From assembly GCA_012839085.1 (NCBI GenBank), contig DUNZ01000113.1, forward strand, positions 1-40,897: 40,897 nt of DNA, given 5' to 3'. This stretch comes from Clostridiales bacterium. Its GTDB lineage: Bacteria > Bacillota > Clostridia > Lachnospirales > Lachnospiraceae. A model generated the notes under the pieces. It saw only the letters and a program-made list of their open reading frames with translations. It searched no databases and was not told where the DNA came from. The position numbers and the translations under genes were made by a program. This document shows positions 2,674 through 29,897 of the stretch, one piece after another. Each line of letters starts with the position of its first letter. Position 1 is the first letter of the stretch.

Positions 2674-3666
2674 CTACTCCTCAACCAAATTCAAATTACG
2701 TTCAAAAATCCCATTAAAGTCGATACTTTCGCGGTATTTTTCTTGTACCGCACCATTGATTAAGAATTGAACCTTACTGATTTTTGAATTGGGTAATTCA
2801 ACTAAAGTATTCACCACAGAGTAGATCACCAGTTCATCATTGGTTATATTCGGAACCTTCTCTAAGAATTTTTCATTAAAATCTACATAACAGATTCCTT
2901 CCTTGGTACTAACATTTAATAATGTGGTACCCTCTGGTATGGTGTTATATAAGCCATTTTCTGTCGGTCCATTGATTAATTGCTTGATAACTAGTTCCTC
3001 AATGGAACCGGTTCCAGTATAATGAATATTCGTATCCGTTTCAATCAAGGCATCTCCCTCTTTATTGGCAAAGAACAAGGATACTTTGTAATAGGTTTGG
3101 GTACCAGTACTCTCAAGAAAACGATCTTGTGTCATTAAGCCAACAATACTTCCATCGATATTTTTAAGGGGCTGTCCATTCACGTAAAATTCTACATATT
3201 CAATACCATTGATCTGGCAGAGGGTTTTTACCACGGTAGCTCTACATAGAATTTCTGATATCCCTGTTAAATCATTATAGCTAGTATCAAAATTAATCGT
3301 TAACCGGTCATCTTCATTAAAAACGAATTCTTTTATCTTTACACTATCAGGCAATGCTTTTTTATAGGTTATTTTATCCGGTCCTTTTCTTAAAACATCC
3401 ATCAGCTCATTGACCAGTTCTAAGCGGTTTGTAGTAGTCGTCCGATAGATCTCACTGACAATTTCAAATGTCTTACTATTAATATAGTAAATATTAAAAT
3501 CGATTTCCTTTTCCTCCGCCTGCTTATTTCGATCATTAGAACAAGCGGAAAACAGTATCATAATTATTAGTATGATGGAAATCCCAAAACACTTCTTCAT
3601 CTTATCCATTCCTTTATTACTTATTTTCACAACCAATTTGTAACCAGGACTATAGCATCGCTTCAA
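2674..3666 (-). CDS. GerMN-domain lipoprotein (GerM-like sporulation/germination protein); true start probably an internal Met before MKKCFGISIILIIMILFSAC
   Basis: Lipobox-type signal (LFSAC) and two GerMN-like repeats (ELVNELMDVLRKGP..., ELVIKQLINGPTENGL...). Confidence 0.85.
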   Translation of the reverse strand: MKRCYSPGYKLVVKISNKGMDKMKKCFGISIILIIMILFSACSNDRNKQAEEKEIDFNIYYINSKTFEIVSEIYRTTTTNRLELVNELMDVLRKGPDKITYKKALPDSVKIKEFVFNEDDRLTINFDTSYNDLTGISEILCRATVVKTLCQINGIEYVEFYVNGQPLKNIDGSIVGLMTQDRFLESTGTQTYYKVSLFFANKEGDALIETDTNIHYTGTGSIEELVIKQLINGPTENGLYNTIPEGTTLLNVSTKEGICYVDFNEKFLEKVPNITNDELVIYSVVNTLVELPNSKISKVQFLINGAVQEKYRESIDFNGIFERNLNLVEE

Positions 3667-3710
3667 TCATCACTCCCCACCCCAATTGACGGCGAGGAAG
3701 TCCAACTTCA

Positions 3711-5102
3711 TTATGCTATATAATTCAAAGGTATTCTTACATTAAAGGTTGTCCCTTCCCCTTCCGTACTATATACCTTGATAGCTCCTCGATGCATCTG
3801 AATTACATTTTTCGTAATTGATAAACCTAATCCGGTACCACCGGTCTCTCTGGAACGGGCCTTATCAACACGGTAAAAACGTTCAAAGATATAATCCTGT
3901 TCTTCTTCTGGAATACCGATTCCAGAATCAGCAATTTTTATAAAGAAGTATTTGTGGTCAGCGTTTAATGAAACTCGTATCCAACCGTCTTCCATATTAT
4001 ACTTGATTGCATTTTCTATTAAATTAGATATGGCCAAGGATAGTTTTACTTCATCTATTTCTGCTATCACAGGGCGAAAGCTTTCAAATATCATTTCAAT
4101 ATTTCGCTTTTTTGCTATTGGACGTAATCTCTTAAGGATCTGCTCTAGAAGCTCATTGATATTGCAACTGGTTATATTCATATCCCCTGCAGTTTTATCT
4201 AGCTTAACCAAGGAGAGTAGGTCATTAATTATTTTATTCTCTCTTTCAATTTCATCGGTTATATCATGCAGAAATTCCCGATACAGTTCCACTGGTGTAT
4301 CCTCCTGGGCAATTAAAGAATCAGCCAATACCTTAATGGAGGTAATCGGGGTTTTTAATTCATGAGACACATTGGAAACAAACTCCTGTCTTGATTTTTC
4401 CAACTTTTGCATCCTGGAAATCATTTTGTTAAATGAATCTGATATTTTTTCAATCTCATAATATCCTTTTATGGATACTTCTTGATCCAGATACCCTTCC
4501 GTTAACTGATCAATGAAATTTACAATGCTTGTTAAAGGTTTTGTTAATTTATTGGAAAAATAAAATGCGCTAACCAATATTAGGGTAGCCAAGCTGGCTA
4601 CAAAGACCATTATCCCCTTTTCCAAACTATCTTTGATCGATTGAATATCCTTGGTAGAAAAATTCATAACAATAACACCCATAACGTCCTTGGTTGTATT
4701 ATGGGTGATTGGATAAGTTAATTTAAGATAATGATTCTTATGATCATGGTTATTATACTTAACATTATTGAAGCTTTGGATTACTTCCGGTGATACCAGA
4801 TATTTTCCTTCTTCAAGAGAGTAGGTATCTTTCACAATAGTTAAGCTATTATTTACAATAATAATCCGTCCATCATATATTTCTGAAATTCGATTGATCT
4901 CCTTATCAATTTCAGGAGCATCACTATTTGCCAATAAATTAGTCGGAAGTAATAAATTCGATAACATATTGGCCTGGCCTTGTAGTTGTTTTACTCGATT
5001 TTCAATTGCTTTATCTTCATAGGTTTTAAGAACAACGTAAGAGAAAAAGGAAAGAGGTACTATACCAATAACGATAAATACCAGCAGCATGTTTAATCTC
5101 AT
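3711..5102 (-). CDS. Sensor histidine kinase (two TM, HAMP, HisKA, HATPase_c), WalK/PhoR type
   Basis: FVSNVSHELKTPITSIK H-box, ADSGIGIPEEEQDYIFERFYRVDKARSRETGGTGLGLSI. The ORF track start (5183) overlaps the upstream response regulator; Met at 5102 (MRLNMLLVF) is more plausible. Confidence 0.92.
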   Translation of the reverse strand: MRLNMLLVFIVIGIVPLSFFSYVVLKTYEDKAIENRVKQLQGQANMLSNLLLPTNLLANSDAPEIDKEINRISEIYDGRIIIVNNSLTIVKDTYSLEEGKYLVSPEVIQSFNNVKYNNHDHKNHYLKLTYPITHNTTKDVMGVIVMNFSTKDIQSIKDSLEKGIMVFVASLATLILVSAFYFSNKLTKPLTSIVNFIDQLTEGYLDQEVSIKGYYEIEKISDSFNKMISRMQKLEKSRQEFVSNVSHELKTPITSIKVLADSLIAQEDTPVELYREFLHDITDEIERENKIINDLLSLVKLDKTAGDMNITSCNINELLEQILKRLRPIAKKRNIEMIFESFRPVIAEIDEVKLSLAISNLIENAIKYNMEDGWIRVSLNADHKYFFIKIADSGIGIPEEEQDYIFERFYRVDKARSRETGGTGLGLSITKNVIQMHRGAIKVYSTEGEGTTFNVRIPLNYIA

Positions 5103-5121
5103 GCTATTTAATATTTTTAGA

Positions 5122-5814
5122 TTATTCTTGATTCTGGAAAAAATAGCCAACACCCCATTTAGTATGTATATATTTTGGTTCACTTGGATTGCTTTCTATC
5201 TTTTCCCGCAGTCTCCTAATATGCACATCGACAGTCCGAACATCCCCTGGGTAATCATATCCCCATACGATATTCAATAGATGCTCGCGGCTATATACTT
5301 TATTGGGATTAAATACTAATAACTCTAATAAATCAAATTCTTTTGCTGTAAGATTAACTTCTTTACCAGCAATATAGACCCTACGATTATCACAATCAAT
5401 TTTTAGATCTCCGTAGGATACTGTTTTAGTATCATCGTTATTCTGATTTTTTCCACTGCGGCGCATAATAGCTTTTATCCTAGCTTTAACTTCAAGTATA
5501 TTGAAGGGCTTTGTAATATAATCGTCTGCACCATATTCTAAACCTAAAATCTTATCCATGTCATCACCCTTGGCCGTTAACATGATGATTGGCATAGATG
5601 AAAATTCCCTGATTTGCTGACATACCTCAAATCCAGATAATTTGGGGAGCATTACATCAAGAAGCACCACATCATATTCTTTCTTTTTGGCTGCTTCCAA
5701 TGCTTCTTCACCGTCATAAGCACAGTCAACTTCCATCCCATCCTGCTCTAAGCTGAAGCGGATCCCTTTTACGATTAGTTTTTCATCATCTACTACTAGT
5801 ACTCTCTTTGCCAT
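5122..5814 (-). CDS. OmpR/PhoB-family response regulator
   Basis: VLVVDDEKLIVKGIRFSLEQDG receiver, VLLDVMLPKLSGFEVC phosphoacceptor region, winged helix RTVDVHIRRLREKIE. Confidence 0.96.
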   Translation of the reverse strand: MAKRVLVVDDEKLIVKGIRFSLEQDGMEVDCAYDGEEALEAAKKKEYDVVLLDVMLPKLSGFEVCQQIREFSSMPIIMLTAKGDDMDKILGLEYGADDYITKPFNILEVKARIKAIMRRSGKNQNNDDTKTVSYGDLKIDCDNRRVYIAGKEVNLTAKEFDLLELLVFNPNKVYSREHLLNIVWGYDYPGDVRTVDVHIRRLREKIESNPSEPKYIHTKWGVGYFFQNQE

Positions 5815-25914: not shown

Positions 25915-26394
25915 TCATTTATGGTAAGGTTGATTATGATTAATCCGATAGGATCGGTAGATCTGCTCCAATAGAATGACCCTCATTAGTTGGTGAGGAA
26001 AGGTCATTTTGGAAAAACTTAATTGATAGTCCGCCCTACTTAAAACCCCTTGTGATAATCCTAGAGAACCACCTATTATAAATGTGATATGACTATTTCC
26101 CTTTATAGCAAGCTCTGATATCTTTGATGCTAACTCCTCTGAGGACAGCATAGCACCTTCAATCGCAAGAGCAATACAATAGCTATCCGGTTTTAAAGCT
26201 TTTAAAATCCGTTCCCCTTCTTTGTTCTTGATGATTTCTTCTAAAGATGTGCTAGCATTGTCCGGAGTCTTCTCATCTGGTAATTCTATGATTTCCATAT
26301 TGCAATATCTACTGAGTCGCTTGGAATATTCTCCAACTGCTTGAACCAGATATTTTTCTTTTAATTTACCCACACAGATTATTGTTATTTTCAT
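25915..26394 (-). CDS. rlmH: 23S rRNA (pseudouridine1915-N3)-methyltransferase
   Basis: MKITIICVGKLKEKYLVQAVGEYSKRLSRYC, FIIGGSLGLS, MTFPHQLMRVILLEQIYRSYRINHNQPYHK. Confidence 0.97.
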   Translation of the reverse strand: MKITIICVGKLKEKYLVQAVGEYSKRLSRYCNMEIIELPDEKTPDNASTSLEEIIKNKEGERILKALKPDSYCIALAIEGAMLSSEELASKISELAIKGNSHITFIIGGSLGLSQGVLSRADYQLSFSKMTFPHQLMRVILLEQIYRSYRINHNQPYHK

Positions 26395-26950
26395 TTATTT
26401 TTTCTTCCTCTATGGCTTCATTGACATACTGATACAGAACGCCATTTTTTACGATTTTCAGCTTTTCTCCTTTAAACCCTCTTTTTCTTAGTTCTTTTTG
26501 AAAATTGTAAATCATAAAACCATGGCAGACAATTAGAATGTTTTCCTTGGACCAATCAATTCGGTCTAGAAAAGCATTAATCCTTCTTCTGGTACCTTCT
26601 ATGGTCTCTGGTTGGCTTTTTGATTTAAAATACCAGGCTAGCCTACCACAGATATGCCATACCTCAAAGGGTAATTTTAAACGTTCCGTATGTATAAAGG
26701 GGGCATTATCCACTTCCCTTAGTAGTTTATCTATTTTTAAATTACCACTATAAACTTCTTTTGCTGTTGTAATCGCCCTGGGTAAATCACTTACATAACA
26801 GATATCCCATTGGATTCCGTACATTTCAACCTTCTTTTTTATTACTTTTGCTTTTTCATATTTTCTAGACCACTGGCGAAACTCGCCGGAAGTCATCATT
26901 TTCTTATGGGGACAATTTACTTTAAAGTGCCTTAGTAATCCAATTCTCAT
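26366..26950 (-). CDS. Histidine phosphatase family protein (start adjusted to MRIGLLRHFKV)
   Basis: MRIGLLRHFKVNCP RHG-like motif, YVSDLPRAITTA, ILIVCHGFMI. Confidence 0.85.
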   Translation of the reverse strand: MRIGLLRHFKVNCPHKKMMTSGEFRQWSRKYEKAKVIKKKVEMYGIQWDICYVSDLPRAITTAKEVYSGNLKIDKLLREVDNAPFIHTERLKLPFEVWHICGRLAWYFKSKSQPETIEGTRRRINAFLDRIDWSKENILIVCHGFMIYNFQKELRKRGFKGEKLKIVKNGVLYQYVNEAIEEEKINENNNNLCG

Positions 26951-27143
26951 AACCTTATTCCAATCTAATCCTGTGTATTTTATAATTAAACAATCCATCG
27001 TTTAACATGATTATCATTTCAGATTTCACTGATAATATACCCATTTATTATAACGACATTTGATGCTATTTATCAAGCTGTTTTTATATATATTGACATG
27101 TTGAATCAAGATGAAAATCTTAGTCTAATTTCATGATAAATTT

Positions 27144-27210: not shown

Positions 27211-27402
27211 AGATTTTGTTTTCAGTGTGTTTATACATTTTTTCATTCTTCCACCAGATTATTGTATTTGTCGAACTTTTGTAAATATTTGTATAGCTTG
27301 TCATATTTTAGTTCACAATTGACACATTTTTGAACTAAATTGTTCACAAAAAGTCTTTAAACTATCCATATTTTAAACATATATTCTGTTTATAATATAA
27401 AT

Positions 27403-27490
27403 CAGAAAGTGATTATTTTCACTCTCCTCCTCCCTACATTATAAATTTAAAAGAGGTATCTTATCTTTTTGTAAGATACCTCTTTTATGT
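27403..27490 (+). ncRNA. Candidate small RNA 1
   Basis: TATAAT (27391-27396), hairpin GAAAGTGA/TCACTCTC, C-rich CTCCTCCTCCCT (27424-27435), perfect 15-bp terminator stem 27449-27486; no ORF. Confidence 0.45.
27449..27486. terminator. Intrinsic terminator hairpin
   Basis: aaaagaggtatctta / taagatacctctttt. Confidence 0.85.
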
Positions 27491-27710
27491 TGCCTATCTA
27501 TGAGTTTACAATGAGTTTTGGGCTATTTCTTAATTGCTTTTATTTATGGATGTTTTTTATTCATTGGGCTTTGACTCAATGAATTGTATATACTTGTTAA
27601 TTTTTTATTCAGTGGGATTGATTGATCTTGCATATTTTTAAATCGAATTTATAAAATAAACTTTATAATTTTATCACAAACTGGACACATTTTCTCACTA
27701 TACTATTTTT

Positions 27711-27831
27711 AGATAGTGATAACTCACTTTCTACTCCCACCCATGATACGCTTAATATATCTGTTAGGTGTAAGCGAAAGGGGCTGTCGCTTTAACGATT
27801 GTAAAATCATGAAGCGGCAGCTTCCTTTTTG
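27711..27831 (+). ncRNA. Candidate small RNA 2, paralogous to candidate 1
   Basis: TATACT (27699-27704), hairpin GATAGTGA/TCACTTTC, C-rich CTACTCCCACCC (27731-27742), terminator 27777-27830; no ORF. Confidence 0.45.
27777..27830 (+). terminator. Intrinsic terminator
   Basis: aaaggggctgtcgctt ... agcggcagcttccttt followed by tt; stem with G-U pairs and a T-run on the plus strand only. Confidence 0.75.
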
Positions 27832-27864
27832 CCTAAAAACAGTCTTTCTTTATTTATGCAAGTT

Positions 27865-28141
27865 TTAAGTTACAAGGTTCTCACTTTCTTTTAATGCGTA
27901 AAGTTTCTTCCTCAATTTCTTCACGTACTTCATTTTCACTGTATTTCCATAAACTATTTTCGTATCATACAGTTGCTCGCATTCAGCCATTAAATCCGCC
28001 ATTAGCTTTTCCAGATATTTCTCCTGGGTCATAAAGACTGTTAGACATTTCAGCTAGGATACGCTTTGAACATGGAGCAAAATGAATGATTCGAAATCTT
28101 GCAAAGGTTGCATGGTCAGGAGCACTGGCGTCAGTTAAATC
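27865..28141 (-). pseudogene. Degenerate transposase fragment (IS1182-like)
   Basis: Minus-strand translation DLTDASAPDHATFARFRIIHFAPCSKRILAEMSNSLYDPGEISGKA resembles the PDHxTFARFR region of IS1182-type transposases; frame is then lost and a 55-aa ORF (27865-28032) overlaps in another frame. Confidence 0.55.
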
Positions 28142-28153
28142 CATTCCCTACCT

Positions 28154-29500
28154 TTATTTTTCGTCTATTTCCGTAGCTTCCTCACTTTTCGTAGGCTCTA
28201 TTTTAGTAATTCGAACCTGTTCAATCATTTTATTTCGAGTTTCCAGTATGTCAAATCGATATTCTTCATAGTCTAAGGTTGCCCTCTCTCCATCCTGAGG
28301 AATTCGATCAAGTAATGCAATCAACAAGCCATTTAAGGTCTCAAAATCATCATGTTCGATTGCAATATCTAGCTCATCCTCTAAATCTTCTAAGCTTATG
28401 GAGCCCTTGACAACCACAGAAGATTCCTCCATGGAAAGTATCATTTTTTCTTCATTGTCATACTCATCTTGAATATTACCTACAATCTCCTCCAAGAAGT
28501 CTTCCATGGCCACAAGCCCGGCAGTTTGTCCATACTCATCGATTACAATTGCCATATGAATGTTTTTCTCTTGCATATCATGAAAGAGGATATTTATATT
28601 TTGCGTATCTGGAACAAAGTATGGCTCTCTAGCAATATCCTTTAATTGCTTATCCTTCGAGTCATCTGATATGTAGGCATTAATTACATCCTTAAGATGT
28701 AATATTCCAATAATATTATCTCGATTCTCTTCATATAGAGGATATCTTGAATAATTTTCGGATAACATAAAGCGTAATGCTTCTTCTATCTTCATTTCGG
28801 AATTTATTGCTATGATTTTCTTTTTCGGGGTCATAATATCCTGAGCTTCTTTTTCATCCAACTCAATGATATTTGAAATCATCTCGGCCTCGCCCGCATC
28901 AAATACTCCTCGCTCTTGACCTTCGTTCACCATATAGATTATTTCATCTTCAGTTACTTTTTCCTCTAAGTCTGAGGGTTTAATTCGAAATAGTAGAAGA
29001 AACATATACATTAATTTTTCTATAACCCAAGTAAATGGTTTTAAGATAGACCCTAAAAGGAGAACCAGACCAACCACACCATAGGATACTCGCTGGGCAT
29101 CCTTGATTGCCAGTTTCGATGGAATCACTGTACCAAATAAAGTACATACCAGCACCAGTAATATTGTAAATACAATCAAATACAAGGGGCGCACAATATT
29201 GATATTAAAACCACTATTTTTCACAATCGCTTCAATAGGATCAAGATAATAAGTAAAAAAGATTAAGCCGATTACTACCTGAATACCATTGATTAGTAGT
29301 TCCAGTCCCGTCATATAAGCCCCAGAACTCTCTAATATTTTGAGTAGGGTTATTGACCTTTTGTCGCCTGATTCAGCTTTTTTTCTAATCACATTTTCGT
29401 TTACATTACTTAAAGCAGCCTTTGCAGTTGAAATTATTGCATTAAATAATATCAGGGTCAAAATAATTACCACACCCGATATGGGATTGCCATCTTCCAT
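28154..29500 (-). CDS. Hemolysin/CorC-like membrane protein (CNNM, CBS pair, CorC_HlyC)
   Basis: IMTPKKKIIAINSEMKIEEAL, YPLYEENRDNIIGILHLKDVI, AIVIDEYGQTAGLVAMEDFLEEIVGNIQDEYD. Confidence 0.94.
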   Translation of the reverse strand: MEDGNPISGVVIILTLILFNAIISTAKAALSNVNENVIRKKAESGDKRSITLLKILESSGAYMTGLELLINGIQVVIGLIFFTYYLDPIEAIVKNSGFNINIVRPLYLIVFTILLVLVCTLFGTVIPSKLAIKDAQRVSYGVVGLVLLLGSILKPFTWVIEKLMYMFLLLFRIKPSDLEEKVTEDEIIYMVNEGQERGVFDAGEAEMISNIIELDEKEAQDIMTPKKKIIAINSEMKIEEALRFMLSENYSRYPLYEENRDNIIGILHLKDVINAYISDDSKDKQLKDIAREPYFVPDTQNINILFHDMQEKNIHMAIVIDEYGQTAGLVAMEDFLEEIVGNIQDEYDNEEKMILSMEESSVVVKGSISLEDLEDELDIAIEHDDFETLNGLLIALLDRIPQDGERATLDYEEYRFDILETRNKMIEQVRITKIEPTKSEEATEIDEK

Positions 29501-29531: not shown

Positions 29532-29897
29532 TTACCTAAAATATGTATCTAAAGAAAAACTAATGATAAGGGCTTTATCAACTTTCTTTAATACATCTCG
29601 ATCTAAATGACATACTTTTTCCTTTAATCTAGATTTGTCTATGGTTCGCACTTGTTCTAACAAGATGACAGAATCTTTGACAATACCATACTTATCAGCA
29701 TCCAGCTCCACATGGGTAGGAAGCTTGGCCTTATTCATTTTTGATGTAATGGCCGCACAGATCACCGTTGGACTATGCTTATTACCTGTATCATTCTGTA
29801 TGATTAGCACGGGTCTAACGCCACCTTGTTCAGACCCAACTACCGGTCTTAAATCTGCATAAAAGATATCGCCTCTTTTAATAACCACTTTACTCAC
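29532..29897 (-). CDS. MazF/PemK-family endoribonuclease toxin (NdoA/EndoA-like)
   Basis: [33 protein letters not shown]; located after alr as in the Bacillus ndoA neighbourhood. Confidence 0.94.

Follow-up and report, generated by a model that had tools for sequence, protein, structure and literature searches.

The window considered here (the whole stretch of DNA that was analysed, 40,897 nucleotides) carries two neighbouring plus-strand units which are predicted to be non-coding small RNA (sRNA) genes, members of a family found in several genera of the Lachnospiraceae. Unit 1 (27404..27490), delimited by folding, its terminator and the comparison of 20 loci, presumably specifies an RNA of about 88 nt which begins 7–8 nt after the -10 hexamer. 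A 5′ hairpin (27404–27426, by folding) leads into the unpaired C-rich segment CUCUCCUCCUCCCUACAU (27423–27439), in which CUCUCCUCCUCCCUAC ends at 27437, and a terminator located by terminator search (27448–27487) closes the unit. Unit 2 (27711..27832), recognized by a covariance model, by folding and in 20/20 loci, has a predicted length of about 122 nt. Its 5′ hairpin (27711–27732, by folding) is followed by the conserved unpaired core ACUCCCACCC (27733–27742) and here by AUGAUACGC, then by a folded second hairpin (about 27747–27772), which is additional relative to unit 1, and by a terminator (about 27774–27832, terminator search). Both folds are unusually stable (z -7.3 for unit 1, -6.6 for unit 2; none of 200 dinucleotide shuffles was as good), and terminators are present above chance (four found versus 0.4 expected). 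The preliminary description had placed two such units, each with a -10, a hairpin, a C-rich stretch and a terminator, at these sites, where they do exist; its gap of 8–9 nt between the -10 and the hairpin is in fact 7–8 nt, and the second hairpin of unit 2 had been missed.

The list of open reading frames contains none of annotated size over either unit, and both flanking genes lie on the minus strand. The divergent neighbour (26366..26998) specifies a member of the histidine phosphatase superfamily (Pfam PF00300), is given for context only and recurs beside the loci in other genera. On the other side lies a gene for a CNNM/CorC-type CBS transporter (28154..29500; Pfam CNNM, CBS, CorC_HlyC), likewise context only; since it is convergent with the pair, there is no downstream gene of which the units could be leaders. 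A MazF/PemK-family gene (29532–29897, minus strand) adjoins alr, which is the usual arrangement in Firmicutes.

The promoters of the two units share one architecture. That of unit 1 (27367..27396, plus strand) has CATA at 27367 and again at 27378, a gap of 9 nt and the -10 hexamer TATAAT (27391–27396); that of unit 2 (27675..27704, plus strand) has CACA at 27675 and 27686, the same 9-nt gap and TATACT (27699–27704). Neither possesses a -35 box, because direct repeats of the activator type, ending 9 nt before the -10, occupy its place. An 11-bp direct repeat which replaces the -35 is typical of activators of the OmpR/PhoB type. The earlier statement that no convincing -35 could be found therefore holds, with these repeats standing in its stead. 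When 124 family promoters were aligned on the -10, CACA or CATA occurred at -24 in 97 and at -13 in 98 of them, and fainter repeats were seen at -35 and -46. In about 20% of family copies the box is missing at the standard spacing. Upstream of unit 1 an alignment of 19 loci revealed a further conserved region (27320..27366, plus strand; GACAYAAA...TTGTTMACAAA...GTCTTTA), within which two weaker matches to the box lie in phase at 27320 and 27342 (PWM scores 10.4 and 11.6), the main match beginning at 27353, 11 bp after the latter.

A PWM trained without window sequence and run over all positions and both strands of the window ranked the unit 2 promoter first (35.1) and that of unit 1 second (20.5), the next score being 12.0. 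A degenerate form of the box matched only three times in the 2.6-Mb genome: at unit 1, at unit 2 and at a third C-rich RNA candidate. The latter (G000:C201:7638-7830; L204, L250) has a terminator hairpin with the loop CUACCCUCCCCCCUCU and looks like one more C-rich RNA belonging to the regulon. In other Lachnospiraceae yet another box-driven RNA candidate, with UUCUUCUCCUUCC, adjoins the unit 2-type gene (L117, L156).

A DNA search with unit 1 matched 20 of 41 related genomes, the window's own counted. At all 20 same-genus loci unit 2 lies downstream of unit 1, in the same order and at a core-to-core distance of 171–407 nt. ACTCCCACCC of unit 2 is identical in 20/20 of these loci and ACTCCCACCCTATTATACG in 18/20, the exceptions being the window and L019; since unit 1 was the query by which these loci were ascertained, the search itself does not account for the identity seen in unit 2. 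Covariance model R1 matches unit 2 in the window with an E value of 5e-10, the window copy being among the 20 rows of the model. Across the order, the unit 2 model found matches in 8 of 392 genomes, and Velocimicrobium porci (G398) alone has eight copies. The exact unit 2 core was present in 6/392 genomes and 4/173 genera (reversed control, 0 matches). With 4–5 of 173 sampled genera carrying it, the family is patchy and not family-wide. A hint from a 12-mer complement search of extra unit 2 copies in G004 came to nothing, the sequences being unrelated.

When a sequence collection was scanned, the core, ACUCCCACCC(UAUUAUACG), came up in at least 120 DNA stretches, almost all of them carrying the label Lachnospiraceae or Clostridia. 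For these copies the query dictates the core but leaves the flanks free to differ in structure. A 5′ hairpin of at least seven pairs abuts the core in 93% of copies versus 28% of shuffles, and a hairpin 2 stem of at least 7 bp, built from 61 distinct arm pairs, occurs in 68% versus 5%. Stems were compared with shuffles because register shifts of hairpin 2 made pair counting on alignment A3 uninformative. A unit 1-like RNA adjoins unit 2 also in phytofermentans, Anaeromicropila, [Clostridium] polysaccharolyticum and other loci. Rfam 15 yielded no family at gathering score for the window and 14 relatives, nor anything credible at relaxed thresholds, and the consulted portion of the Clostridium phytofermentans TSS map, whose library had a size limit of 200 bp, names no such RNA (PMC5171806). 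Judged on these comparisons, the predicted sRNA family is conserved and real. The proposal of a duplicated family is borne out by two paralogous units with a single promoter architecture, whose tandem arrangement is kept together with the hairpin, C-rich segment and terminator; the loss of this layout from homologous intergenic regions had been named as the observation that would speak against it, and in relatives the layout is retained.

The preliminary description had overlooked the regulon to which the units appear to belong, which involves HtrA and a two-component system. A stricter box pattern applied to 26 relatives also matched an HtrA-like protease and an unnamed lipoprotein. Among htrA loci gathered by protein similarity, and thus independently of their promoters, the box precedes the gene in 15 of 16 same-genus orthologues (the 16 include the locus which gave rise to the test) and, for a second paralogue, in 4 of 5; 0–1 of 1000 shuffles were as good. 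One of the eleven OmpR-type regulators of the genome, that of the response regulator–histidine kinase (RR-HK) pair at G000:C78, has the box upstream, and no CACA repeats were found upstream of the other ten. By PWM its box is weak in this genome (8.9); orthologues carry TTCACA-N5-TCATA/ACATA-like repeats upstream in 11/11 parsable genomes (shuffle counts 0–20 of 1000), and two from other genera score above 20. At 13 loci of other genera a C78-type RR (69–79% identical) follows the sRNA on the same strand, at a distance of 0.24–3.0 kb. Neither this RR nor its HK reached an NCBIfam equivalog cut-off.

Over 2.7 million positions the PWM gave 194 matches above 16, mostly at sRNAs and htrA, a count biased by the choice of loci for those very genes; the HtrA and RR tests are free of that bias. 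Among the remaining matches above 16 are more CU-rich RNAs and a membrane protein with an FKBP domain. At two loci (L074, L040) the box lies upstream of, or near, the gene for a membrane-anchored FKBP-domain (trigger-factor-like) protein, which fits a secretion-stress regulon. The same box at the RR and htrA promoters predicts an autoregulated system controlling htrA, and indicates that this two-component system may switch on both sRNAs as well. As a prediction, the assignment of the sRNA family to this regulon is strong.

Might the box be read by another OmpR-type regulator, WalR- or PhoP-like, with the C78 system merely a co-target of genuine sRNAs? WalR and PhoP boxes are likewise 11-bp direct repeats, and the window itself contains an RR (5122–5814) which is the best YycF match here, at 283 bits against a cut-off of 340. 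This WalR-like RR shares one operon with a kinase and a GerMN (Germane) lipoprotein (2674–5814, minus strand). No CACA repeat occurs upstream of it, and it was rejected as the regulator on that ground. The pst loci (28 examined, box PWM score at most 11.9) are without the box, for which reason the phosphate regulon was dismissed as its source; their lack of it also counts against a reader of this kind. Linkage and autoregulation favour the C78 orthologue, and we regard a different reader as rather improbable. Much less probable still is that the units are cis-acting leaders or attenuators, or genes for small peptides, and not trans-acting sRNAs. It is true that a terminator closes each unit and that a 50-aa GTG frame (27716–27868) overlaps unit 2, but the gene downstream has the opposite orientation, as it does in many relatives, any reading frame is broken by loop indels and hairpin swaps, and the longest ORFs beginning within the RNA usually have 10–29 codons and differ among copies. 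Least credible of all is a true transcript on the minus strand, where unit 1 offers TATAAT, the RBS-like string GGGAGGAGGAG and GTG, and where the terminator stem is bidirectional; it is the plus strand that keeps the promoter box, the -10, the placement of the hairpin and the U-runs, and the reverse frame is not kept among relatives.

Two described regulons resemble the one proposed here. The CiaR-dependent csRNAs (ccn) of streptococci are intergenic RNAs of 51–202 nt, several per genome and sometimes in tandem, with two stem-loops and an unpaired C-rich stretch; 11-bp repeats lie about 10 nt before the -10, and htrA is in the regulon (PMC3091779, PMC8186281). Units 1 and 2, with predicted lengths of about 88 and 122 nt, are likewise intergenic; each possesses a promoter and a terminator of its own and has stem-loops on both sides of an unpaired region, and here too several homologous RNAs and htrA share one box. 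That box, however, is CACA/CATA at 11-bp spacing and not the NTTAAG-N5-TTTAAG of CiaR, and the candidate RR has TIDTHVKKLRSKM where CiaR has the recognition helix VVEVYVSKVRKKL (about 4/13 identical, compared by hand). Because box and recognition helix differ, the family is not a member of the CiaR csRNAs; the Lachnospiraceae hosts and the core sequence are different as well. The window's units contain an anti-start CAU which the unit 2 consensus lacks. In Bacillus, CssRS is an autoregulated two-component system controlling two htrA paralogues (PMC12826053). Here the box is similarly found at the RR and at two htrA paralogues, and also near the FKBP-domain protein and the unnamed lipoprotein; unlike CssRS, the RR-HK operon does not adjoin htrA in this genus, and no NCBIfam equivalog cut-off links the C78-type RR and HK to CssRS. 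We know of no sRNAs driven by CssRS. The best reading of these likenesses is that the regulon mirrors the CiaR plan of an RR, htrA and several sibling sRNAs, although the lineage is a distant one and neither the DNA box nor the regulator is the same.

The comparison originally drawn with RsaE/RoxS is without support from homology, Rfam matches being absent. As in the RsaE/RoxS and FsrA types of C-rich Firmicute sRNA a C-rich single strand is available to meet a Shine-Dalgarno (SD) sequence, but there is no sequence or covariance-model match to them, and layout, promoter and host differ. Unit 1 paired with translation-start regions at a mean of -10.9 kcal/mol versus -6.3 kcal/mol inside genes, as did its reversed and some shuffled versions; its complementarity to the SD follows from its C-richness and would be seen with any C-rich sequence. 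For unit 2, which had no advantage over shuffled controls, the anti-SD claim is not supported as it was put, and the search for conserved targets gave none; SD pairing is altogether the weak part of the proposed mechanism. The unit 2 core paired with start regions no better than when reversed or shuffled; perfect or near-perfect 12-mer complements were no commoner than controls, nor was GGGTGGGRGTRG with one mismatch commoner than the reversed pattern; and among 60 DNA stretches only a few had a site at a start region, none of which recurred at orthologous starts. The core might then act without SD pairing, as a sponge or decoy whose partner is a protein or a single strongly conserved RNA. In favour of this are the 17–19 nt of core, conserved far more than SD pairing requires, the want of a start-region preference over shuffled sequence and the failure to find recurrent targets. 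Sibling unit 1, with the same layout, is on the other hand a plain anti-SD-like sequence, and sRNA seeds with several targets may also be strongly conserved, and we hold such a mode of action to be possible though unlikely. Slightly more doubtful is the specific form in which the near-invariant ACUCCCACCCUAUUAUACG is a dedicated binding site for a protein or one ancient RNA partner and not a general anti-SD. If it were, the Lachnospiraceae would possess a stress-induced RNA family with a new mode of action, copies of which had been taken up by mobile elements (eight in Velocimicrobium porci).

Our preferred reading, which we consider likely, is that the sibling sRNAs are the RNA arm of an HtrA-linked two-component regulon responding to envelope or secretion stress, and that they repress mRNAs by pairing with ribosome-binding sites. 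What the sequences themselves establish are the genes, the structures and their conservation, the shared box, its occurrence at htrA and the RR, and the sRNA-RR linkage. Each unit would be an sRNA gene with its own promoter and terminator, and an OmpR-family RR seated on the 11-bp direct repeats immediately before the -10 would activate these -35-less promoters. The activator is most likely the autoregulated C78 pair, whose RR we infer to bind the box and which would also activate htrA and other envelope genes, envelope or secretion stress being the presumed inducer. Each RNA would expose a C-rich single strand between its 5′-terminal hairpin and the 3′ structure or terminator, and these segments would most likely block translation of selected mRNAs through their G-rich ribosome-binding sites, by pairing near the start codons.

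The unit 2 core also turns up in unusual settings. Velocimicrobium porci has its eight copies in one genome (L022, L033, L034, L037), and two viral-classed contigs (L159, L160) each bear one. Several of these copies have no 11-bp box, and a sigma-70-like promoter (TTGAAA-N17-TATAAT) precedes at least one of them, which suggests that the box-less copies may be mobile-element copies freed from the stress regulator. Searches of phage and plasmid collections gave no match to the family.

The literature we searched says little on regulation by sRNAs in the Lachnospiraceae, which are major anaerobes of the gut and degraders of biomass. The present family is missing from Rfam. As its promoter code can be read, and a candidate regulator and a co-regulated protease are at hand, its function lends itself to direct testing. 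The likeness to CiaR suggests that a design which couples HtrA quality control with sibling sRNAs may recur among Firmicutes.
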